A DNA stretch of 34,212 bases from a virus. A program made the translations under genes and the position numbers. Positions 410 through 13,470 of this stretch are shown here, piece by piece. Every line of letters starts with the position of its first letter. Positions within the stretch are counted from its first letter, which is position 1. The stretch is taken from IMG/VR virus record IMGVR_UViG_3300013286_000032, positions 1 to 34,212 of that record; one strand, 5' to 3'. The notes beneath the pieces were generated by a model, which did not search any database, had not been told where the DNA came from, and saw nothing but the letters and a program-made list of their open reading frames with translations.

Positions 410-1195
410 ATGTCTAATAAAATTCTAATTGGTGGATGTAGTGTTTCGGCTGGATTTGGGCTAGACTGTGAACGACTGGATCCACGCATGTGGCTTAACC
501 AAATTTTGCGTAATGTATATCCAGACCCTGACATTAACAATATTAGTGTAACAGGCTTAGACAATCATGAAGTTTTTGTATCAACCGCTGATCAGTTGCT
601 CACTAACAAATATGATTTAACTGTAGTACTCTGGCAAAATATTCCCCGGGTTAACTTTCACTTTGGATTAGAAACTTATCAAACCAGAGCCGGTATTATT
701 GCAACCGGTCGTTGTAGCGATATTAACCTGGTAGGTGGACAACGAGTATTGGGCAAAAACCTTGACCGTGCTCGCGAATACATGTTAAAATTTTATAATT
801 ATCACTGGGATATTAAACACTTGGTCACTTATGTCAATGTGCTCAAACGTCTTGCTGAACCTGGACAAATTGTGTTTGTAAACTATGCTCAACCGTGGCA
901 TATTTGCCGCTACTTTGATACAAAAGCATGGACCGTACCATCAGAATTAGATCCGTTTACCCAGGAGTTATTAGAAGTGGCCTTGCGTGATGACGCAGAA
1001 ATAAAGACGCTATATAATATGTGTCATGAACAGTATCATGCGGCAGGTGGAATACAAGAAAATAGTTGGTTAAATTTGTACACACCGTTAGCTCAAATTC
1101 AAATTGATACACTCCTAAATGATCCTCATCCTGGCTATTTAAGTCAAGATGTGTTTGCAAAATACCTAACACCAATACTTCAAAAAAAGTTGTAA
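410..1195 (+). CDS. SGNH/GDSL-hydrolase-like protein, 261 aa
   Basis: Resembles the SGNH hydrolase superfamily (esterases, lipases, deacetylases). The N-terminus has a beta-strand leading into GGCSVSAG, matching the GDS nucleophile block with Ser11. Near the C-terminus NDPHPGY matches the D-x-x-H block, but with Asn at the Asp position. Oxyanion-hole blocks II and III are not clear. No signal peptide is seen, so it probably acts in the cytoplasm. It is the first gene of a transcript read from a leaderless sigma70 promoter and overlaps uvsW by one base (TAATG). A second SGNH-like gene follows uvsW. The substrate is unknown; a role in modifying host or phage acyl or acetyl groups is only inference. 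Confidence 0.65.
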   Translation: MSNKILIGGCSVSAGFGLDCERLDPRMWLNQILRNVYPDPDINNISVTGLDNHEVFVSTADQLLTNKYDLTVVLWQNIPRVNFHFGLETYQTRAGIIATGRCSDINLVGGQRVLGKNLDRAREYMLKFYNYHWDIKHLVTYVNVLKRLAEPGQIVFVNYAQPWHICRYFDTKAWTVPSELDPFTQELLEVALRDDAEIKTLYNMCHEQYHAAGGIQENSWLNLYTPLAQIQIDTLLNDPHPGYLSQDVFAKYLTPILQKKL

Positions 1196-2664
1196 TGCCT
1201 ACAGCCACAATCATAATTCGAGATGAAGTAAACATCAAGCTAGAGGGGCTTGAACTTGATGTACGAAAGAAATTAGTTAACACATTCAAGTACGAGATTC
1301 CGGGCGCCCGCTATCAACCAGCAGTTAGGCTTGGTCGATGGGATGGTAAAGTGGCCTACTTCCAACTCGGCGGCAGCACATATACTAACTTGCTACCGGA
1401 AATTATTCCAATATTAGAAAATTTTAATTACGATATTGAACTAGATGATCAGCGCGACTATAGAACTACGTTTGAATTTGATCAAGTCAAGGAAGACTCG
1501 TTTGCCGGCAAAGTATGGCCCAAGGCCCACCCCTTAGAAGGCCAACCCATCATGCTACGTGACTATCAAGTTAAAATTGTCAACGAGTTTCTGGCCAATC
1601 CACAATGCCTACAAGAAGTGGCCACAGGCGCAGGTAAAACCATCATGACCGCGGCACTAAGTCATAGTGTGGAGCAGTATGGTCGTAGTATTGTTATTGT
1701 ACCGAACAAATCATTGGTAACACAAACAGAAAAAGACTATATCAATATGGAATTGGATGTGGGCGTGTTTTTTGGCGATCGAAAAGAGTTTGGCAAAACA
1801 CATACCATCTGTACTTGGCAAAGTTTAAATGTCCTTTTAAAGAATTCAAAGTCAGCCGATATTGAAGTTAGCATAACCGACTTTTTAGAAGATGTTGTAT
1901 GTGTGATTGTTGATGAAGTTCATATGGCCAAAGCAGATGCATTAAAAACATTACTAACCGGCGTCATGGCCAGGATTCCAATTCGTTGGGGCCTAACTGG
2001 CACAGTACCTAAAGAAGCATATGAATTTCAAGCCTTGAAGTGCAGTATTGGCCCAGTAATCAGTCAACTCAGTGCCAGCGAACTACAGGAGCGCGGTGTA
2101 TTGGCGCAATGCCATGTGAACATTGTGCAATTGGTAGACCATGTGGAGTATACGGATTATCAAAGTGAATTAAAATACTTGTTAGAAGAACGAGGCAGAT
2201 TAGATACCATGGCCGAACTGATAAAGCAGGTTAATCTTACAGGCAACACCTTGGTACTAGTAGATCGTATTGCCGCCGGGCAAGGCCTACTAGAACGCCT
2301 GGGAGATCGTGCTGTGTTTGTTTCGGGTTCAACCAAAGGAAAAGTCAGACAAGATGAATATGATGAGATCGCTATTTCAGACGATAAGATTATCGTTGCA
2401 ACTTACGGCATTGCCGCTGTCGGAATCAATATTCCTCGCATCTTTAATCTGGTACTTATTGAGCCTGGTAAGTCGTTTGTTAGAGTTATACAAAGTATAG
2501 GGCGCGGTATTCGTAAAGCCAAAGACAAAGATCATGTACAAATTTGGGACGTCACAAGCACCTGCAAGTTTGCCAAACGACATTTAACCAAACGCAAACA
2601 ATTTTACAAAGAAGCCAATTATCCATTTACCCAAGAAAAATTAGAATGGATGAAGATCAAATGA
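1195..2664 (+). CDS. uvsW: UvsW-like superfamily 2 DNA/RNA helicase, 489 aa
   Basis: T4 UvsW unwinds branched DNA and R-loops, supports branch migration and replication-fork rescue, and ends early origin-dependent replication. The sequence has a UvsW-type N-terminal domain (RLGRWDGKVAYF near residue 45), Walker A ATGAGKT at 143-149, a DEVH box at 240-243, motif III GLTGT near 266 and motif VI QSIGRGIRK near 433. The length is close to T4 UvsW (about 500 aa). It starts in a TAATG overlap with the SGNH-like gene, and its stop overlaps the next start (ATGA), so the three genes look co-transcribed. The order SGNH-uvsW-SGNH is unusual. Identification is confident. Confidence 0.95.
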   Translation: MPTATIIIRDEVNIKLEGLELDVRKKLVNTFKYEIPGARYQPAVRLGRWDGKVAYFQLGGSTYTNLLPEIIPILENFNYDIELDDQRDYRTTFEFDQVKEDSFAGKVWPKAHPLEGQPIMLRDYQVKIVNEFLANPQCLQEVATGAGKTIMTAALSHSVEQYGRSIVIVPNKSLVTQTEKDYINMELDVGVFFGDRKEFGKTHTICTWQSLNVLLKNSKSADIEVSITDFLEDVVCVIVDEVHMAKADALKTLLTGVMARIPIRWGLTGTVPKEAYEFQALKCSIGPVISQLSASELQERGVLAQCHVNIVQLVDHVEYTDYQSELKYLLEERGRLDTMAELIKQVNLTGNTLVLVDRIAAGQGLLERLGDRAVFVSGSTKGKVRQDEYDEIAISDDKIIVATYGIAAVGINIPRIFNLVLIEPGKSFVRVIQSIGRGIRKAKDKDHVQIWDVTSTCKFAKRHLTKRKQFYKEANYPFTQEKLEWMKIK

Positions 2665-3267: not shown

Positions 3268-3768
3268 ATGCGAATATTAACCTTAGACAATGCACCATTT
3301 GATTTAGATCATTTACCCGAAGAAGTAGATGACATGCGATTTGCCATACTAGATAATAGTAATCCGCAAGATCCAGACTATCACTACATACCCTTAATCT
3401 TTTTAGAAAGTTTTAATGCTCCAGCCTTGGTGCTACGCATTGGTGATTATAAAATTCGCATGCCTGTGGATTGGCAAATTTTAATTGGTGAACCCGACCT
3501 GGGAGATCTAGAAGTGTTACCACTGACCAGTATCAATGATCGCGGCTTCAAGGCATTTCAATTCAATCCATTAACCAGTTTTAGACCCAGTTTTCTTGAC
3601 ATTGAAATTGTTGATGTCTATCAGGAAGTGGCCTGGTATGCTCCTAAACTTAAAAACGGGCAGATGCTGTGTGTGCCCCTGGGCTCTGAAGCCAAGCCAG
3701 ACTGCGTGTATTTTGTCAAGGACATTAGCCGCAACTGTGAAGTGATTGATTATAACAAGGCATGGTAA
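3268..3768 (+). CDS. conserved-looking hypothetical phage protein, 166 aa
   Basis: Unrecognised. The protein is soluble and acidic, with no signal peptide, membrane segment or cysteine cluster. The middle (IGDYKIRMPVDWQILIGEP) and the later VAWYAPKLKNGQMLCVPL look like compact beta-rich segments rather than disorder. It is the first gene of a leaderless transcript that continues through a gp62-like protein, a zinc-finger protein and a DnaE-palm-like protein, so a replication-related or regulatory role is possible from context alone. Its stop overlaps the next ATG by one base. Confidence 0.75.
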   Translation: MRILTLDNAPFDLDHLPEEVDDMRFAILDNSNPQDPDYHYIPLIFLESFNAPALVLRIGDYKIRMPVDWQILIGEPDLGDLEVLPLTSINDRGFKAFQFNPLTSFRPSFLDIEIVDVYQEVAWYAPKLKNGQMLCVPLGSEAKPDCVYFVKDISRNCEVIDYNKAW

Positions 3769-4214
3769 TGGATAAACTTAGTATTGGTAATGAAATGGCG
3801 CAGTTTGATCGCAAGAACCGCGACTTTTACCATGACCTTACTAATGAAGAAAAGAAAAAGTTCAGCAACTTTCTCATGATTCGATATGGAAGTAGTGTAC
3901 AAGGCAGTCGCGATTTACAAGAGTTTTACCTTATTAGCACCAATGAACGACTTAACAAACACTTCTTTAATATTAACCGGCATCCTAAGTTACAGTGGTT
4001 ATGCGCCACGACAGTTAGTCCCGGTATGGGTACAGTTAGACATAATTGGATTGCACCCAAGAAAAAAGAACCCGGAGCCAACAGTATTAAAAAACAGTTG
4101 GCAGAATTATATCCTAACATGAAATCTGATGAGATCGATGTTATGGCAGTAATTAACACTAAAAAAGAACTAGATGCATACTTAAAACTATCAGGACAGG
4201 AGATTAAAAAATGA
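3768..4214 (+). CDS. gp62-like clamp-loader small subunit (tentative), 148 aa
   Basis: T4 gp62 is the small subunit of the gp44/62 clamp loader, which places the gp45 sliding clamp on DNA. The resemblance is in overall pattern: an N-terminal helical part, a central segment with LNKHFFNI followed by HPKLQWL, a basic stretch with HNWIAPKKK, then IKKQLAELYP and a helical C-terminus. This matches the layout of short gp62 proteins as I remember them, and is not a residue-level proof. No gp44 or gp45 gene lies in the window. I chose the ATG at 3768 (TAATG overlap with the preceding stop) over an in-frame ATG two codons upstream. The final ATGA overlaps the next gene. Confidence 0.5.
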   Translation: MDKLSIGNEMAQFDRKNRDFYHDLTNEEKKKFSNFLMIRYGSSVQGSRDLQEFYLISTNERLNKHFFNINRHPKLQWLCATTVSPGMGTVRHNWIAPKKKEPGANSIKKQLAELYPNMKSDEIDVMAVINTKKELDAYLKLSGQEIKK

Positions 4215-4441
4215 TTTGGGCTTTATTTAAAAAAGAAACTACAGAACGGGTACAGCCGCCAATGCCTAACCCAAGATTCAAACACGATGGAAAGTTATTT
4301 CGATACGCACCTCAGTCCGATATAACAGCCTACGAAGTGGCACTGATCTTGCCAACCGCAGTTCAGTCGTCCACCCCAATAAATTTATATGGCTATTTTG
4401 AAGAAAATAATCTGTTAAGGCACTTCCAGAAAGAAGAATGA
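4211..4441 (+). CDS. small hypothetical protein, 76 aa
   Basis: Unrecognised. It begins with an aromatic and basic stretch (MIWALFKKETT), followed by a proline-rich segment, and has no cysteine or clear membrane helix. The start overlaps the gp62-like stop (ATGA) and its own stop overlaps the next ATG in the same way, so it is embedded in the operon and probably translated by coupling. Support for coding comes from this fit rather than from family recognition. Confidence 0.65.
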   Translation: MIWALFKKETTERVQPPMPNPRFKHDGKLFRYAPQSDITAYEVALILPTAVQSSTPINLYGYFEENNLLRHFQKEE

Positions 4442-5112
4442 GTTATACCTGTCAGTATTGCCGGAAGGACTTTATAAAAGAGTCTAGCTTGGCTGTGCAT
4501 TCGTGTGAGCCAAGACGTCGCCGCATGGAAAAAGACGAAGCAGGAGTTAGATTAGGATTTCAAAGTTATATCAAGTTCTATGAACTTACACAAGGATCAG
4601 CCCGGCTCAAAACCTTTGATGATTTTGCTGATAGTCCTTACTACCGGGCCTTTGTTAAATTTGGCCGACATTGTGTTGCTATTCGCGCCATCAACCCGGC
4701 CCGCTTTGTTGAATGGGTTCTAAAACAAAACAAGAAATTAGATTACTGGTGCAAGGACACTGTGTATACTGAATATCTCATGGATTACCTGCGTGTAGAA
4801 AATGTCAATGATGCCTTGGCTCGTGCCATGGAGTTTGGTATAGACTGGGCAGAAAACTCAGGACATCCAGCCGAGGATTGCCTACGGTATGGTAACAGTA
4901 ATGCCATGGCATACGCTGTTAGTGTAGGTCGTATCAGCCCCTGGATTATATACAATTGCGAGTCGGGCCAGAAGTTTTTAAGTGAATTAGATCCTACCCA
5001 AATTGCCATGGTGTGGCCCTACATAGACGCAGACTTTTGGCAACGCAAGTTTAAAGATTATCCAGCAGATCAAGAGTATGCCAAAGATATTTTAACCCGG
5101 GCAGGGTGGTAA
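4438..5112 (+). CDS. C2H2 zinc-finger protein, 224 aa
   Basis: The N-terminus holds one zinc finger: C5-x2-C8, then a helix (ESSLAVH) with a His and a Cys further on, a C2H2/C2HC-like arrangement that suggests nucleic-acid or protein binding. The remaining 190 residues are helical and rich in aromatic residues (FVKFGRHCVAIRAINPARF; WPYIDADFW) and end in AGW. The ordered look of the sequence suggests a conserved phage family, but I cannot name it. It lies between the gp62-like and DnaE-palm-like genes with stop/start overlaps on both sides, so a part in replication or its control is plausible. Confidence 0.75.
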   Translation: MSYTCQYCRKDFIKESSLAVHSCEPRRRRMEKDEAGVRLGFQSYIKFYELTQGSARLKTFDDFADSPYYRAFVKFGRHCVAIRAINPARFVEWVLKQNKKLDYWCKDTVYTEYLMDYLRVENVNDALARAMEFGIDWAENSGHPAEDCLRYGNSNAMAYAVSVGRISPWIIYNCESGQKFLSELDPTQIAMVWPYIDADFWQRKFKDYPADQEYAKDILTRAGW

Positions 5113-5681
5113 TGAGCGCAGATATTGATATCGACTTAGCAGACCGCGAACAAGTGTTAAAACTCATTCGAGCTACCTCTGCACGACAACTGCATCAAGG
5201 ACAGGTGCGTCGGCATAACTCTGGTGTATATGTAACTGACATTCCGTATGATCCTGTTAATGAGTGTGCGGCCCTGGATTATGAACAAGCAGAAGAACAT
5301 GGATACTTCAAGATAGATTTGCTTAATATGTCAGTGTATCAATTGATAAAAAGTCCCGAACACTATGCAGAGTTGTTGGCCATTACTCCGCCGTGGGAAC
5401 GATTATGGACTGATCTAGAATGGGCAAAACAATTGGTGCATATAGGCAATTATACAGAATTATTAAGGTCAATGAAACCGGATAGTATACCTAGAATGGC
5501 CGCATTTATCAGTATCATTCGGCCCGGAAAAGCACATTTACAAAATTGCTCTTGGGAGGAAGTGTTTAAGTTAGTTTGGGATGGCGATGATAGTCGTGGA
5601 TTTGTATTTAGACACAGTCATGCAATCAGCTATGCCGCATTAGTTTCACTGCACATGAACCTACTCAACTCGTCGAACTAA
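5112..5681 (+). CDS. mini protein resembling the palm of C-family DNA polymerase (DnaE-like), 189 aa
   Basis: Short segments match conserved DnaE/PolC blocks in the correct order. Residues 4-8 (DIDID, followed by ADREQVLKLI) resemble the PDxDIDF palm motif and its following helix. HNSGVYV at 35-41 resembles the HAGGVVI block. FKIDLLN at 66-72 resembles the KFDFLGL block with the third palm Asp (D69). KPDSIPRMAAFISIIRPG to 139 resembles the block ending in RPGP. FRHSHAISYA at 166-175 resembles the NKSHSAAYA block. The full family is about 1,100 aa; PHP, most of the fingers, beta-binding and OB domains are absent. Both the DxD and third Asp positions seem kept, so catalysis is not excluded. It could be a regulator or decoy derived from a polymerase. 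The ATG at 5112 overlaps the preceding stop; GTG at 5106 is an alternative. It converges with the minus-strand gene by 21 bases. Confidence 0.65.
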   Translation: MSADIDIDLADREQVLKLIRATSARQLHQGQVRRHNSGVYVTDIPYDPVNECAALDYEQAEEHGYFKIDLLNMSVYQLIKSPEHYAELLAITPPWERLWTDLEWAKQLVHIGNYTELLRSMKPDSIPRMAAFISIIRPGKAHLQNCSWEEVFKLVWDGDDSRGFVFRHSHAISYAALVSLHMNLLNSSN

Positions 5682-6038
5682 AGTAATACTTTTTCTTTTG
5701 GATTTTTTACGACTCATTTCGCTTAGGCTGCAGATGGGTCCGTGTAACACTTCAAGATCTTTGTTGACAAAAGTACGCAGGTAAACTTTAAAAGGATCCC
5801 ATTCAGTTTTAAGGAATATGTTAATTGGTATACTACGATTGCTTTCCCACCACCAAATATTGGCTAATTCTAAAAATTTGCGTTTGCTATCTAAATCTTG
5901 TATGCTGCCAAAATCATATATAGTTGTAATAATATCATCTTGGTTTTGTATAATACCCACATATTCTGTAGTGGCGTAGACACACAGCGTTATAAACGGG
6001 TATTTTTCAGCTAGTTTAGCAAAGATGTCGTTAGTCAT
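5661..6038 (-). CDS. conserved-looking hypothetical phage protein, 125 aa
   Basis: This is the only gene on the minus strand. It begins MTNDIFAKLAEKYPF and contains a hydrophobic strand region, a WWWES motif and IPINIFLKTEW, and ends in a very basic tail (SRKKSKRKSITLVRRVE). The pattern resembles a hypothetical protein common in T4-like marine phages, in my memory, with no known function. I chose the ATG at 6036-6038; a TTG 24 nt upstream is in frame but lies across the promoter. A perfect TATAAATA late motif sits 12-19 bases upstream on the minus strand. Its 3' end overlaps the DnaE-palm-like gene tail to tail. Confidence 0.8.
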   Translation of the reverse strand: MTNDIFAKLAEKYPFITLCVYATTEYVGIIQNQDDIITTIYDFGSIQDLDSKRKFLELANIWWWESNRSIPINIFLKTEWDPFKVYLRTFVNKDLEVLHGPICSLSEMSRKKSKRKSITLVRRVE

Positions 6039-6049
6039 AATGTCCAGGA

Positions 6050-6057
6050 TATTTATA
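6050..6057 (-). promoter_or_regulatory. T4-type late promoter (minus strand)
   Basis: Perfect TATAAATA on the minus strand. If the motif occupies -13 to -6 as in T4, transcription would start near 6044, about 6 nt before the ATG at 6038. No Shine-Dalgarno sequence fits. It is divergent from the late motif at 6084-6091. Confidence 0.6.
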
Positions 6058-6083
6058 ACCAAAAGACCTCGAACGGTTTAATC

Positions 6084-7293: not shown

Positions 7294-8286
7294 ATGATTG
7301 ATGTGGTTTCCTTTTTACCGGCCAAGCGAAAACAAACATCCAGTGGGTGGATAAGTTTCAATGCACCTTGTTGTATTCATCGTGGCGAAAATGCAGACCG
7401 TAGACAACGCGGTGGAATTAAATTAACTCCTGAGGGTGGATGGAATTTTCATTGTTTTAATTGTGGTACCACGGCTAGTTTTGTACTGGGTCGTACATTA
7501 ACATTCAAAGCTCGCAAATTATTGACCTGGTTAGGAGTAGACTCACAGGTCATTGAGCAAATTAATCTTGAAAGTATGCGGCATAAAAGCATACATGGTT
7601 TATTAGAAGATCGAGAACAAGTAGTTAAAAAAACAGAAGTAGAATTTGAAGAACGAGATTTACCAGCCGGACTTGAATTGGTCGCCGAACAACACGTCGC
7701 CTTAAAAGAATACCTTGTCGCAAGAGCAGTAGCATTGGATTATCCTTACATGACTAACCCTGCAAATTCTCGTCCTGGAATACTTGTTCCGTTTACATAC
7801 AAAGGCATGATGGTAGGAAGTGCCATTCGCTTTTTAGATAATCGTACACCTCGGTATATCAATGATATACAACCTGGATATGTATTTGGCACTGACCTAC
7901 AACAGTCAGCCTGGCAGTATGCCATTGTGGTCGAAGGTGTGTTTGATGCCCTAAGTATCAATGGCCTGGCAGTCTTGCATAATGATATCAACCCACAACA
8001 GGTAGAATTAATTAAAAGTCTAGGACGACAAGTAATAGTAGTACCGGATCAAGACGTTGCTGGTATGAAATTAGTAGATCGTGCCTTGGAATTGGGCTGG
8101 GCTGTCAGCATGCCCGAGTGGCCTGCAGGAGTCAAGGATGTCAATGACGCGGTAATTTACATGGGCAGAGTAGGATGTTTGCTAACTATACTACAAGCCC
8201 GAGAAACCAGTAGAATTAAAATTGAACTAAGGAAAAAACAACTTGTTCGTCAACTAAAAAATGTGCAGGTACAGAATATTAAATGA
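7294..8286 (+). CDS. DNA primase, gp61-like, 330 aa
   Basis: Makes RNA primers for the lagging strand together with the gp41-type helicase encoded just downstream. The N-terminus has a CHC2-type zinc site (C26/C27, H29, then C54-x2-C57). A TOPRIM domain follows, with the acidic motif VVEGVFDA (E214, D218) and VPDQDVAG (D252, D254) coordinating Mg. The length matches T4 gp61 (about 340 aa). It is read from a strong leaderless sigma70 promoter, consistent with early expression. Its stop codon overlaps a GATAAATA late motif that belongs to the following homing endonuclease gene. Confidence 0.92.
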   Translation: MIDVVSFLPAKRKQTSSGWISFNAPCCIHRGENADRRQRGGIKLTPEGGWNFHCFNCGTTASFVLGRTLTFKARKLLTWLGVDSQVIEQINLESMRHKSIHGLLEDREQVVKKTEVEFEERDLPAGLELVAEQHVALKEYLVARAVALDYPYMTNPANSRPGILVPFTYKGMMVGSAIRFLDNRTPRYINDIQPGYVFGTDLQQSAWQYAIVVEGVFDALSINGLAVLHNDINPQQVELIKSLGRQVIVVPDQDVAGMKLVDRALELGWAVSMPEWPAGVKDVNDAVIYMGRVGCLLTILQARETSRIKIELRKKQLVRQLKNVQVQNIK

Positions 8287-8314: not shown

Positions 8315-9025
8315 ATGTCTGTTTATGCATCAACACAGGTTGCACCGTATGTTTATATCTGCACTCACAAAACCACAGGAAAATTCTACATTGGCTACAG
8401 AGAAAGAAATGTATCGATGAATATTACATCTGATTTAGATTTTCCAATGTATCGTACATCATCAAAAGCAGTTAACAAAAAATTTAAAGAGTTTAATTGG
8501 ACTATTATTGCTGAATTTAAAACCGGTGTTGATGCCTATGATTTTGAACAACAACTAATTTACGAAAACTGGGATAATCCGTTGTTAATGAATGAATCCT
8601 GTCATTACGGTAAATCAAGATTTCGATCTGATCTCAAGGGTATTAAAAAATCTGAAAAACATAAAGAAAAATTAAAACAGGCAAGAAGATTACGGGCCCC
8701 TCATAGTGAAGAGACTAAACAAAAAATCTCAGATGGAAACAAAGGTAAAGTGGTACCAGAAATTTCTCGATTGCGTATTGCTTCTGCAAAAATTGGAAGC
8801 AATAATCCAAACTTTGGTAAATCGCCGTCTGCAACTACTACAAAAAAACGAAAATTATCATTAAAGAAATATTATCAAGAATTAAAAGAAAAAAATATAC
8901 CTCATCCATCCACCGGATTTAATCAAATTCGTGTGACTTGTACTTGTTGTAAAAAAACAATAGCAGTAAATATTTTTTCAAGATTTCACGGCAACAAATG
9001 TAAAGGAAATAAGAATGGCAACTGA
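8315..9025 (+). CDS. GIY-YIG homing endonuclease with NUMOD-type DNA-binding region, 236 aa
   Basis: A free-standing selfish endonuclease of the Seg/I-TevI kind. The GIY-YIG nuclease is at residues 12-30 (YVYIC ... FYIGY, then Arg30). The middle, about 125-170 (HSEETKQKISDGNKG ... NNPNFGKS), has the SxE/K and NxxFGK signatures of NUMOD3-type DNA-binding motifs. The C-terminus has a likely zinc site (CTCC ... H-x3-C). The gene is visibly richer in A/T and in AAA/AAT codons than its neighbours, as expected for a mobile gene. It lies between intact primase and helicase genes, overlapping the helicase start by 11 bases, so it is an intergenic insertion and not an intron. Confidence 0.9.
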   Translation: MSVYASTQVAPYVYICTHKTTGKFYIGYRERNVSMNITSDLDFPMYRTSSKAVNKKFKEFNWTIIAEFKTGVDAYDFEQQLIYENWDNPLLMNESCHYGKSRFRSDLKGIKKSEKHKEKLKQARRLRAPHSEETKQKISDGNKGKVVPEISRLRIASAKIGSNNPNFGKSPSATTTKKRKLSLKKYYQELKEKNIPHPSTGFNQIRVTCTCCKKTIAVNIFSRFHGNKCKGNKNGN

Positions 9026-10418
9026 ATACGGCATTGAAATACAAAAATTGTTTTTAGAGATGTGCTTACAGGATGCAGTATCGTATACAAGAATTGCAAA
9101 TATATACAATCCTGAAAACTTTGATCGAAGTCTAAGATCAGCCGCCGAGTTTATTGCCAAGCACAGCGACGACTACAAAACATTGCCGACTCGCGAACAA
9201 ATTTCTGCGGCAACTGGAGTCAAACTTGCGGATATTCCGGACCTGAATGAAGGCCACACTGAGTGGTTCATGGGTGAGTTTGAAGCATTTACTCGTAGAC
9301 AAGAATTAGAACGAGCAATTTTAAAGTCGGCAGACCTGTTGGAAAAAGGCGAATACGATCCTGTGGAGAAATTGATCAAGGATGCAGTTCAAATCAGTCT
9401 AACCAAGGACATGGGCACAGACTACTTTGAAGATCCTCGTGCTCGTATTAACCGATACTTTAATAGTGGTGGACAAGTAAGCACTGGCTGGCCCACCATG
9501 GATCGAATCTTGTATGGCGGCATGAGCCGTGGAGAACTTAATATTTTTGCAGGCGGTTCTGGATCGGGCAAGAGTTTGGTCATGATGAACATAGCCCTAA
9601 GTTGGTTGCAGGCCGGACTCAGTGGTGTGTATGTTAGTTTAGAACTTAGTGAAGAACTATGTTCACTAAGAACCGATGCAATGTTGTCGGGCATGAGTAC
9701 CAAAGATATTCGCAAAGACATTGACACAGCAGAACTTAAAGTCAAGCTGGTGAGCAAGAAAGCTGGACAATATCGTGTCAAGGCATTGCCAGCACAAAGC
9801 ACAGTGAATGATATTCGTAGCTATATTAAAGAAGTACAGGTTCAAACAGGAATTAAAGTGGACTTTATGATGGTAGACTATCTGGATTTATTAATGCCAG
9901 TGTCAGCCAAGGTAAGCCCAAATGATCTGTTTGTCAAGGACAAGTATGTTTCTGAAGAACTACGTAACTTGGCCAAAGAACTCAATGTATTATTTGTAAC
10001 AGCAAGTCAGTTAAATCGTAGTGCGGTAGAAGAAATTGAATTTGACCACAGTCATATTTCGGGCGGTATCAGTAAAATTAACACAGCGGACAATGTGTTT
10101 GGCATCTTTACAAGTCGTGCCATGCGTGAGCGTGGCAAGTATCAAATTCAGTGCATGAAGTCACGGTCAAGTACAGGTGTTGGTATGAAAATTGACCTAG
10201 ATTACAACATTGAAACCATGCGCATTACAGATCCAGGCGAGGAAGAAAATACTAATTTTAGCAAACCTAAGAATATCTACGAATCAATCAAGGCACAAAG
10301 TAAAGTTAATCAATCGGTAGAATCCGTTGATCAAGACAGCGGCGAAAATAGCAAAATCACTGCCGATGTACAAAGTGCAAAACTAAAACAATTGCTAGGG
10401 CAGATTAAATCCAATTAA
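9015..10418 (+). CDS. replicative DNA helicase, gp41/DnaB-like, 467 aa
   Basis: A hexameric 5'-3' helicase that unwinds the fork and activates the primase. The N-terminal helical domain (about 1-150) is followed by a RecA-type ATPase: Walker A GGSGSGKS at 180-187, Walker B in FMMVDYLDLL near 285-292, QLN sensor (ASQLNRSA), and a late segment GKYQIQCMKSRSS matching the DnaB family arginine-finger region. The length matches T4 gp41 (475 aa). The start ATG has the Shine-Dalgarno sequence AAAGGAA at 9001-9007 and lies inside the 3' end of the endonuclease gene. The C-terminal 60 residues are polar and probably flexible. Confidence 0.93.
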   Translation: MATEYGIEIQKLFLEMCLQDAVSYTRIANIYNPENFDRSLRSAAEFIAKHSDDYKTLPTREQISAATGVKLADIPDLNEGHTEWFMGEFEAFTRRQELERAILKSADLLEKGEYDPVEKLIKDAVQISLTKDMGTDYFEDPRARINRYFNSGGQVSTGWPTMDRILYGGMSRGELNIFAGGSGSGKSLVMMNIALSWLQAGLSGVYVSLELSEELCSLRTDAMLSGMSTKDIRKDIDTAELKVKLVSKKAGQYRVKALPAQSTVNDIRSYIKEVQVQTGIKVDFMMVDYLDLLMPVSAKVSPNDLFVKDKYVSEELRNLAKELNVLFVTASQLNRSAVEEIEFDHSHISGGISKINTADNVFGIFTSRAMRERGKYQIQCMKSRSSTGVGMKIDLDYNIETMRITDPGEEENTNFSKPKNIYESIKAQSKVNQSVESVDQDSGENSKITADVQSAKLKQLLGQIKSN

Positions 10419-10710: not shown

Positions 10711-11596
10711 GTTAACACAGCGCCGTCATGTTGATGAAGGCGTAATGGATACTGCCAAAGCGGCCGCTTCTAAAGTGGGCAGCGCACTCAAAACTGGTGC
10801 TCAAACAGCTGGTAATATTGCCGGCAAAGTTGGCGCTGGGATTCAGGGTGCCAGGGCTGAGATTCAAGATGCAGGTGTTGCTAGACAAGCAACCGAATTA
10901 TCCAAGCGTGGATATGATTCTTGGTCCGCATACGCTAGACAACTAACTGCCCAATACGGCCAAGATCCTAAATTTAAAGACATTTACAAACAACAACTAC
11001 TGGCATTTGTACAGAAAAATTTATTAGGCGGAGCATACTTGCCTAACCTTACTAACAAAGATCAAATTTTAAAATCGGTAGATGACTTGGTCGCTGTAAG
11101 ATTTCCAGCAGGACTTAGCCCGGCAACCAATACACCTACACCAGCAGCTGATGCAAAGCCTCCTGTTATGCTAGGCGGAAAAAAATTAGATCCTAAAAAT
11201 CCCAACGATGCAAAAGTATTAGCTCAAATAAAAGCACAAGGTAAACTAAAAGAAACACGGTTACATGAAGCCGTGGACGTCAACAAAGAAAAACAACTAT
11301 TTCAAAAACTAGTCAAAGATTCTTTATTGGCCAGTGCCACAGTGGCCACCGGACAAACTACAGCAAATAACACTCCAGGCGGTGCTACTACCACTGCTAA
11401 CAAACAAGTACAAGATCCTGTATCAATGGTGCCAGATGTCCAGCAGGTCGAAAAAGTTAAGGCCAATGTAGACGAGCGTACCCTGGCTGCTGTAGGACAA
11501 GTGCTTAGACAAAATTATCAACTGGATCTGTCAATTCGCTCCACCGGCGACGATGCTGTGGATGCTTTATTATTGGCCATGGGATTTAAAATCTAA
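10697..11596 (+). CDS. probable virion-associated protein, 299 aa
   Basis: Unrecognised by family. The N-terminus (MQIHELTQRRHVDEG) carries an I-x-E tripeptide at residues 3-5, shared in form with the starts of the genes at 11596, 15410 and 16291. This resembles the L/I-x-E sites of the T4 prohead protease and the N-terminal capsid-targeting sequences. An Ala/Gly-rich amphipathic stretch follows (KAAASKVGSALKTGAQTAGNIAGKVG). The middle is helical, then low-complexity Pro/Ala/Thr. LKETRLHEA near residue 190 offers further L-x-E sites. The gene overlaps the next by one base. A role as an internal head or core protein is inference. Confidence 0.7.
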   Translation: MQIHELTQRRHVDEGVMDTAKAAASKVGSALKTGAQTAGNIAGKVGAGIQGARAEIQDAGVARQATELSKRGYDSWSAYARQLTAQYGQDPKFKDIYKQQLLAFVQKNLLGGAYLPNLTNKDQILKSVDDLVAVRFPAGLSPATNTPTPAADAKPPVMLGGKKLDPKNPNDAKVLAQIKAQGKLKETRLHEAVDVNKEKQLFQKLVKDSLLASATVATGQTTANNTPGGATTTANKQVQDPVSMVPDVQQVEKVKANVDERTLAAVGQVLRQNYQLDLSIRSTGDDAVDALLLAMGFKI

Positions 11597-13470
11597 TGCA
11601 ACTCAAAGAAGGCGGTAATGTATTCAAAGGCCCCGATGGCGAAGCCTTGACCCAACGCATCAATCAAATAGATGTTAAACCAACCTTGGCTTGGCTAGAA
11701 CAAATGTTGCCAGGACTTGATGTACAAGGTAATACCCTAGGATCAACTGGTATTAAACCCACCAGCGGTGACCTGGATGTTGCGGTAGATAGCAGTCAAC
11801 TGACCAAATTGCAATTAGTCACACGCTTACAACAGTGGGCGCAGAGTCATGGATTAAAACCTGAAGACTATGTAAAACAAACCGGTGCTGGAGTACATTT
11901 TAAAACGCCCATTGCTGGCACTCCAGCCAAGGGTTATGTGCAAACTGACTTTATGTTCCTTAAAAATATTCCTTGGTCAAAGTTTGTGCTTGGTGCCATG
12001 CCTGTAGATAGCCAATACAAAGGTCGCGAGCGTAATGTCCTAATGAACTCCTTGGCCAAGGTCATGGGTTACAAGTTGAATCAAATTGCCGGTATTGCCG
12101 ATCGCAATAGCAATGAAATTATCACGGATGATCCAGATCAAGTGGCCAAAATGTTATTGAATCCCCGTGCCACACGCGAGGACCTGGCCAGTGTAGAAAC
12201 GATTTTATCTGCATTAGAAAAAGATCCCAAGCGTGAAGAAAAATTAGCCGACTTCCGCAATCACATGGAACGAGAAGGCTTGCCATTCATGGAAAGCGAA
12301 TCAGCGCCATTATACCAAGAGGTGTCAGATGTAAATTTCCTGGCTCGACTGCGTGACCGTATTGTCAATCAAGGCATGCAGGTCATTGTAGAAGCTGCCA
12401 GTCCAAGAATTGAGCACCTGGAAGACCTAGTGTTTGAAAAAGGATCACGCGGTATTCAAGAAGCCATTGCCATAATTGAACACGCGGCAGAAAACACAGC
12501 CAAAACAACCACAGTCAAATGGGATGGCAAACCAGCCATTATATTTGGCCGTAACGAATCAGGCGAGTTTGTGCTGACTGATAAATCAGGATTTACCGCC
12601 AAAGGCTATCAGGGCCGTGCTACCAGCGTGGCACAGCTGGCCAACATTATGAACCAGCGTGGTAGTGGTCGTGGCGAACTAATTGCCATTTACGCCAAGC
12701 TATTTCCGTTGCTACGTGCGGCTACACCAGAAAACTTTAAAGGGTATGTACAAGGTGATTTGCTGTACACACAGGCACCACAAGAAATAAGTGGCAATTA
12801 TGAATTTAAGCCAAATGTTGTAGAATATCGTATTCCCATTGACAGCAAGCTAGGACAGCTGATCACCGGCACCGAAGTAGGAGTGGCCATTCATACTCGT
12901 TATAAAACTGCCGACAGTGATGCTGAGGCCATTGGCAATTTAAAACTAAATGCTGTGCCCGGATTACTGCTTATAGAACCCAGTGTTAAAGACATTCAAA
13001 ACGTCAAACCCGAGAGTCAACAGGTCAAGCAATTAAAACAACTGGTGCGAGCCAAGGGCCCGGCCATAGATGGCCTGTTTAATCCAGCAGAACTACGGGC
13101 AGCAGGTATTACAGATTTACCACAATTGTGCAAGCGATATATCAACAGTCGTATTGACACCAACTACGAAAATCTACTACCAGACTTTGGTGCTTGGTTG
13201 CAAAACAACACCACACCCCGCAAGTTTAACAACATTGTAGAATATCTACAAAGTCCTAGAAGTAACATGGACGGAATAGCTTCTGCTTTTACAGCATTTT
13301 TAGGCCTGCACGATTTAAAAATGGACATGCTTAAACAGCTAGATCTACAGCAGCCTGGACAAGAAGGTTGGGTACTTGCTACACCAGCCGGTCGTGCCAA
13401 ACTGGTAAACCGTTTTGGATTTAGTGCCGCCAATCGCGCCCAAAACAACCCAGAACTGGCAAATTCTTAA
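11596..13470 (+). CDS. Pol-beta-type nucleotidyltransferase fused to ligase-like nucleotidyltransferase, 624 aa
   Basis: Two catalytic domains. The first (about 25-240) has the nucleotidyltransferase signature LGSTG at 48-52, DLD at 59-61 and a third Asp in QTDFMF (D118), so the metal-binding triad appears complete. The second (about 265-540) resembles the covalent nucleotidyltransferase superfamily of DNA/RNA ligases and capping enzymes: KWDG at 308-311 as motif I, with later strands (EFVLTDKSG; KGYVQGDLLY; GVAIHTRYK) in plausible motif III-IV positions. It may process or seal nucleic-acid ends, or modify a protein; the substrate is unknown. It begins MQLKE with an L-x-E that could be a prohead-protease site, suggesting packaging and injection. 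The start is in a TAATG overlap. Domain calls come from motifs only. Confidence 0.7.
   Translation: MQLKEGGNVFKGPDGEALTQRINQIDVKPTLAWLEQMLPGLDVQGNTLGSTGIKPTSGDLDVAVDSSQLTKLQLVTRLQQWAQSHGLKPEDYVKQTGAGVHFKTPIAGTPAKGYVQTDFMFLKNIPWSKFVLGAMPVDSQYKGRERNVLMNSLAKVMGYKLNQIAGIADRNSNEIITDDPDQVAKMLLNPRATREDLASVETILSALEKDPKREEKLADFRNHMEREGLPFMESESAPLYQEVSDVNFLARLRDRIVNQGMQVIVEAASPRIEHLEDLVFEKGSRGIQEAIAIIEHAAENTAKTTTVKWDGKPAIIFGRNESGEFVLTDKSGFTAKGYQGRATSVAQLANIMNQRGSGRGELIAIYAKLFPLLRAATPENFKGYVQGDLLYTQAPQEISGNYEFKPNVVEYRIPIDSKLGQLITGTEVGVAIHTRYKTADSDAEAIGNLKLNAVPGLLLIEPSVKDIQNVKPESQQVKQLKQLVRAKGPAIDGLFNPAELRAAGITDLPQLCKRYINSRIDTNYENLLPDFGAWLQNNTTPRKFNNIVEYLQSPRSNMDGIASAFTAFLGLHDLKMDMLKQLDLQQPGQEGWVLATPAGRAKLVNRFGFSAANRAQNNPELANS

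Follow-up and report, generated by a model that had tools for sequence, protein, structure and literature searches.

A minimal DNA polymerase III alpha in two pieces: the C-terminal half from a T4-like giant phage

Introduction

A 189-amino-acid (aa) protein of a T4-like giant phage is the C-terminal half (C-half) of a split minimal DNA polymerase III (Pol III) alpha, the N-terminal half (N-half) of which is encoded in related phages by a separate gene roughly 100,000 bases away. The C-half gene is found at positions 5112..5681 on the plus strand of IMG/VR record IMGVR_UViG_3300013286_000032, a stretch of 34,212 nucleotides (the window), and its product carries the DxD palm strand, the third Asp, and reduced fingers with an O-helix-like motif. 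The gene is genuine and belongs to a family of split Pol III alpha proteins, being neither a remnant nor a one-off. Most likely, the two halves assemble non-covalently into an accessory DNA-synthesizing enzyme of the phage replisome.

For the group 2.2 jumbo phages, a split minimal Pol III alpha has been described in outline by Iyer et al. in 2021 (PMC7824862), who arrived independently at the two-protein reading. According to their main text, these T4-like jumbo phages, including Atu_ph07, encode two short proteins from distant genes, namely an N-terminal NTP-binding one and a C-terminal Mg- and template-binding one; the other Pol III domains are absent, and a B-family polymerase is present (PMC7824862). 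The window protein is a further member of this group. Because the main text gives no matching accessions, we infer the family identity from the description, and in a comparison at that level there is no known difference: like the C-terminal unit of Iyer et al., the window C-half is a separate short protein with Mg-binding Asp residues and a template-binding part. To their outline we add where exactly the chain is split, which residues are invariant (the steric gate among them), that the thumb is lost, and how the two structures tile, as well as counts of co-occurrence, the lack of fusions, and the gene context. No biochemical evidence for the split enzyme was found in the literature searched. 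An earlier trace of the system is CBB_328, a 172-aa truncated "Pol III alpha" of a Rak2-like phage noticed in 2017 (PMC5259590). It belongs to the N-half family and is thus the opposite half to the window protein; the C-half of phage CBB, gp287, went unrecognized in that paper.

The C-half gene and its family

The C-half reading frame opens with an ATG at 5112, which overlaps the stop codon of the preceding gene (TAATG), and closes with a stop codon at 5679-5681; an alternative GTG start is possible at 5106. With the single sequence as query, the protein falls into its own PHROG family, phrog_11778, annotated "DNA polymerase" (E 8.9e-54), and matches positions 577-609 of the DnaE-type profile phrog_405 (E 1.7e-4). 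Single-sequence searches of Pfam, NCBIfam, and the PDB gave nothing or marginal matches, the only Pfam domain being DNA_pol3_finger, below threshold. Aligned with hhalign, the C-half profile is collinear with Escherichia coli DnaE (E 0.0033, probability 9.8%), the low probability being due to the fact that DnaE was entered as a single sequence.

Relatives of the C-half are found in at least 595 IMG/VR stretches and in 63 records of the phage collection, nearly throughout those of jumbo phages. Queried with the window protein, the GTDB bacterial genomes yielded no relative. The initial annotation had suggested that similar proteins may exist in other marine T4-like phages. They do occur in other T4-like phages, but not specifically in marine ones: the carriers infect enterobacteria, pseudomonads, xanthomonads, rhizobia, and Vibrio, or come from environmental metagenomes. 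Both the length of the protein and the split point are constant across relatives, and purifying selection on the gene is strong (dN about 0.12-0.22, with dS at 2-3.2 or saturated).

Fold and active-site residues

An AlphaFold2 model of the C-half, built from 26 sequences with rows taken from IMG/VR loci, reached a pLDDT of 90.6 and a pTM of 0.80. The best 10 Foldseek matches in the PDB are all Pol III alpha. In VIA-align, 13 C-family polymerase entries score Z 6.5-9.9 over residues 1-189, led by Taq alpha (3e0d, Z 9.9), and the next unrelated entry scores 3.1. Residues 1-189 superpose on residues 399-780 of E. coli Pol III alpha (Z 8.8, 184 aligned), and the model matches the DnaE palm and fingers from end to end. 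The DnaE-like palm initially proposed for this protein is thus borne out by a fold that matches C-family polymerases only (Z 6.5-9.9 vs 3.1), and the profile and fold searches, which could have spoken against it, both returned DnaE/PolC and nothing else.

The five DnaE-like blocks noted at the outset are all present, and their order (DIDID, HNSG, KID, IRPGK, FRHSHAISYA) is collinear with E. coli DnaE. All lie on the plus strand. The opening block, D4-I-D6-I-D8 (5121..5135), contains the two metal-binding Asp residues (E. coli D401 and D403) and the equivalent of D405. It is followed by H35-N-S-G38 (5214..5225), which corresponds to H511-A-G-G, and by K67-I-D69 (5310..5318), in which K67 equals K553 and D69 is the third catalytic Asp (D555). 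The fingers motif I136-R-P-G-K140 (5517..5531) is the counterpart of FRPGP 638-642, with R137 and P138 equivalent to R639 and P640; the Lys at position 140 replaces the second Pro of the E. coli motif and is specific to the phage proteins. Finally, the O-helix motif F166..H170..Y174 (5607..5633) places H170 on H760 and Y174 on Y764. In Pol III alpha, the steric gate has been proposed to be H760 (PMC8485763).

Conservation of these positions is complete or nearly so. Among 117 distinct relatives, D4, D6, D8, H35, G38, P45, K67, D69, W95, I136, R137, P138, K140, and H170 are invariant (117/117 each), and Y174 is kept in 115. The DxD and third Asp positions (D4, D6, and D69) are therefore retained throughout, just as was suspected. 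In terms of the C-family core, the C-half contains the DxD and third Asp in a pol-beta-like palm and the fingers with a steric-gate His, and the GRGS motif is absent from it and found in the partner protein.

Several parts of DnaE are missing from the C-half. D4 and H35 are 31 residues apart, compared with 110 in E. coli, and R137 and H170 are separated by 33 residues, compared with 121. Together with the domain limits of E. coli alpha, which we take to be about 433-510 for the thumb and about 560-911 for the fingers, these spacings imply that the thumb has been lost along with much of the fingers. The protein stops past the O-helix, where E. coli has residue 780, and lacks the (HhH)2 region, clamp-binding motif, OB fold, and C-terminal domain. 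A PHP match was sought in both the C-half and the N-half and found in neither. The absence of PHP, much of the fingers, and the clamp-binding regions from a protein covering E. coli alpha 399-780 is thereby confirmed. At the other end, the C-half palm opens directly at the DxD strand, with the preceding, GRGS-bearing part of the palm located in a separate gene.

The partner protein and the split point

A Pfam DNA_pol3_alpha search of related genomes yielded a second short reading frame of ~170 aa, the N-half, which belongs to phrog_11127. Its C-terminal consensus reads ...WGVGRGSSVASYVL..GxHxxDSxxYxLxxxEFL(R/N), and it carries the GRGS nucleotide-binding motif, with G136, G138, R139, G140, and S141 present in 86/86 sequences. 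The N-half model (pLDDT 84.1) has a match list consisting of C-family enzymes throughout, with PolC 9qrn on top (Z 11.9), and at a Z of about 10 its residues 71-170 superpose on residues 278-393 of E. coli alpha. The hhalign comparison of its profile with E. coli DnaE gave an E of 1.5e-5 and a probability of 79%. On the phrog_405 profile the two halves match successive positions, since the N-half covers 361-429, ahead of the C-half match. Residues 1-65 of the N-half (e.g., in L124:3001-3510), or up to the first 60-70, show no match to DnaE, and this N-terminal third could be a candidate partner-binding part.

The halves thus tile the DnaE palm, with the N-half on 278-393 and the C-half on 399-780, and only five residues fall between them. 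The chain has therefore been cut in the loop directly before the catalytic DxD. More precisely, the N-half ends in EFL or EFF plus R, N, or K (one residue more in CBB) at FERFLN of DnaE, and the C-half starts with (S)xDIDID at PDFDVD. This position is identical in 23 paired genomes. No reading frame fusing the two halves was found in 243 loci, E. coli DnaE alone carrying both, and the termini bear no signs of an intein. Given that the C-half holds only half of an active site and that a different phage protein provides the nucleotide-binding, GRGS-containing half of the palm, the suggestion that the 189-aa protein is by itself a minimal nucleotidyltransferase is unlikely.

Gene neighborhood and co-occurrence

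The C-half gene is part of a block that is kept in phages ranging from the Rak2-like ones to Phosso and PA5oct and runs in the order UvsW helicase, small conserved genes, phrog_11058, C-half, convergent 133-aa gene, virion protein gene, primase, and DnaB-like helicase. In the window, the block begins with the UvsW-type helicase gene (1195..2664, plus strand), followed on the same strand by genes for a 166-aa protein (phrog_11279, 3268..3768) and a 150-aa protein (phrog_11758, 3762..4214); the latter presumably resembles the T4 clamp-loader small subunit gp62. Immediately upstream of the C-half lies the gene for a 224-aa phrog_11058 protein (4438..5112, plus strand), whose stop codon is the one overlapped by the C-half start. 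This protein has a weak N-terminal C2H2 zinc-finger match, its gene is found in relatives either directly upstream of the C-half or one to a few small genes away, and it is a candidate third partner of the split polymerase. On the opposite side, the conserved convergent gene (phrog_11637, 133 aa, 5661..6062, minus strand) overlaps the C-half 3' end by ~20 bases, an overlap kept in 6/6 relatives compared. Further downstream, the genes for a gp61-like DNA primase (7294..8286) and a gp41-like DnaB-type replicative helicase (9015..10418), both on the plus strand, are likewise conserved.

Two other genes of this region deserve mention. The primase and helicase genes, which are adjacent in relatives, are separated in the window by a free-standing homing endonuclease gene (phrog_314, E 3e-17; 8315-9025, plus strand). 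Positions 11596-13470 (plus strand) encode a protein of 624 aa that matches Pfam DUF6267 (E 1e-36).

The N-half gene is located a few genes away from the clamp loader gene. With the C-half in the UvsW-to-primase-helicase block, both are thus replication-region genes, and they lie far apart: the distance is about 14-224 kb across the genomes examined and ~100-108 kb in the close-relative contigs G004, G007, and G008. All 12 isolate jumbo-phage genomes with the C-half that were examined also contain the N-half, as do four of the six IMG/VR contigs (G003, G004, G007, and G008), the two without it (G001 and G005) being possibly fragments. The window, itself a fragment of 34 kb, does not contain the N-half. 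In the phage collection, the N-half is also listed for 59 of the 60 listed C-half records, with a 109-kb record as the exception, and in the reverse direction 10 of 12 long contigs carrying the N-half have the C-half. As the genomes are related, these counts are not independent. Pairwise distances of the two halves correlate in a mirror-tree analysis (rho 0.75, 0/2000 permutations), a correlation that is expected from vertical descent alone and is no proof of contact.

A B-family polymerase was found in 12/12 of the isolates with both halves and in 15 of 18 relatives overall, the three without it being contigs of 149 kb or less; it was not seen among the scanned reading frames of the window. 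The contrast drawn earlier between the DnaE-like protein and a B-family enzyme in the same kind of phage holds. A DnaQ-type proofreading exonuclease was considered as an obligate companion and dropped, as an RNase_T match occurs in only 9/18 records and the window gene directly before the UvsW-type helicase gene (410-1195) has no match. One 337-kb phage record (IMGVR_UViG_3300023174_005338) encodes, in addition to the split pair and a B-family polymerase, an unsplit DnaE-like reading frame of 568 aa (L088:520-2223, minus strand; phrog_405, E 8.6e-60) that begins at the palm and has no PHP.

Relation to cellular C-family polymerases

With the bacterial DnaE enzymes of E. coli, Taq, and M. tuberculosis, the phage family shares the palm fold, DxD, third Asp, K553, RPG, and the O-helix with H760, and the GRGS of DnaE is found in the N-half partner. 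In contrast to these enzymes, the phage one comes in two pieces and does without PHP, thumb, central fingers insertion, (HhH)2, clamp motif, OB fold, and C-terminal domain. PolC is matched as well: the full-length C-half aligns with residues 970-1294 of the Geobacillus kaustophilus enzyme (3f2b, Z 9.7) and the N-half with residues 823-964 of 9qrn. PolC has a reduced thumb (PMC3919608), a trait common to it and the phage family, but unlike the phage pair it consists of one chain, in which PHP, exonuclease, and OB domains are also present.

Proposed mechanism and alternative explanations

We consider it probable that the pair is a split but active nucleotidyltransferase. In the mechanism that we propose, the N-half (~170 aa) would supply the first part of the palm, whose GRGS would bind the phosphates of the incoming nucleotide, and the C-half would supply the Asp triad for metal binding, the conserved Lys and Arg residues, and, on a reduced fingers helix, the dNTP-favoring steric-gate His. 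Associating without covalent joining (neither intein nor fusion), they would rebuild one DnaE-like active site of roughly 360 aa, devoid of the PHP, thumb, clamp-binding, OB, and tau-binding parts, in which the C-half would hold the metals and close over the base pair and the N-half would hold the dNTP phosphates. Physical association, catalysis, and dNTP use are what we infer here; the halves could also associate and yet be inactive, and a point against the proposal is that a DnaQ-type proofreading exonuclease does not always accompany them.

The pair would act beside the B-family replicase, in the replisome formed by the products of the neighboring primase, helicase, and clamp-loader genes, and its most plausible task would be short DNA synthesis, for example primer extension or gap filling. 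Taken individually, each of these two roles is possible but rather doubtful, and to the same degree. Lacking a thumb and clamp contact, the enzyme would be confined to short distributive synthesis or would depend on help from other phage proteins; with the thumb gone, it would hold DNA only weakly in the absence of assistance from another protein. Somewhat less likely still is a more ambitious version, in which the pair would be the smallest known active C-family polymerase, working without thumb or clamp contact in a hand-off from primase to B-family replicase and gaining processivity through neighbors such as the zinc-finger-like upstream protein. DnaE serves PolC in this manner in Bacillus.

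Two alternatives accept the pair as real and differ on what it does, and we regard both as improbable to a similar extent. The reconstituted pair might be a nucleotide transferase rather than a templated polymerase, either a terminal transferase or an enzyme adding nucleotides to a protein or small molecule. This would suit a protein that has lost the thumb and most DNA-holding parts and kept its metal- and nucleotide-binding residues invariant; however, the steric-gate His and the fingers motif, which contact the incoming dNTP in DnaE, are invariant too, and both genes are located among replisome genes. Conversely, both proteins might be catalytically silent structural or regulatory replisome subunits derived from DnaE, as the extreme size reduction and the presence of a B-family replicase in the same genomes could suggest. 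A scaffold would be expected to lose some catalytic residues, whereas these are invariant over 117 + 86 diverse sequences.

This conservation in both halves argues against decoys as well as silent scaffolds. The initial annotation had also considered a decoy of host polymerase III or a regulator, for which we found no positive evidence and which complete catalytic conservation fits poorly. That the C-half mimics host Pol III alpha and inhibits host replication is, in our estimation, very improbable: it does resemble part of host DnaE, but it lacks the PHP and the clamp-, tau-, and OB-binding parts bound by host partners, its conserved residues form the active site rather than a surface, its gene is in the replication block and not in an early host-takeover block, and a matching N-half co-occurs with it. 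Least credible of all, to the point of being negligible, is the idea of a captured dnaE of which a decaying fragment is left, or of a chance resemblance. The small size and the weak Pfam and PDB sequence scores might point that way, yet they are set against hundreds of relatives of uniform length and split point, strong purifying selection, and a fold Z far above background. Chance resemblance and a pseudogene are refuted by the relatives, fold match, residue conservation, and purifying selection taken together.

Future perspective

Now that it is explicit where the chain is split, which protein is the partner, and which residues should be mutated, the 2021 prediction of a split Pol III alpha is open to a direct test using two small proteins. 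If the active split enzyme that we favor is confirmed, a replicative-type polymerase core of about 360 residues would be functional with no thumb and as the product of two genes lying 14-224 kb apart in the genomes examined, and the minimal C-family core would be defined. The replisome of T4-like jumbo phages would then combine two unrelated polymerases, and such a division of labor is otherwise known from some bacteria and eukaryotes.
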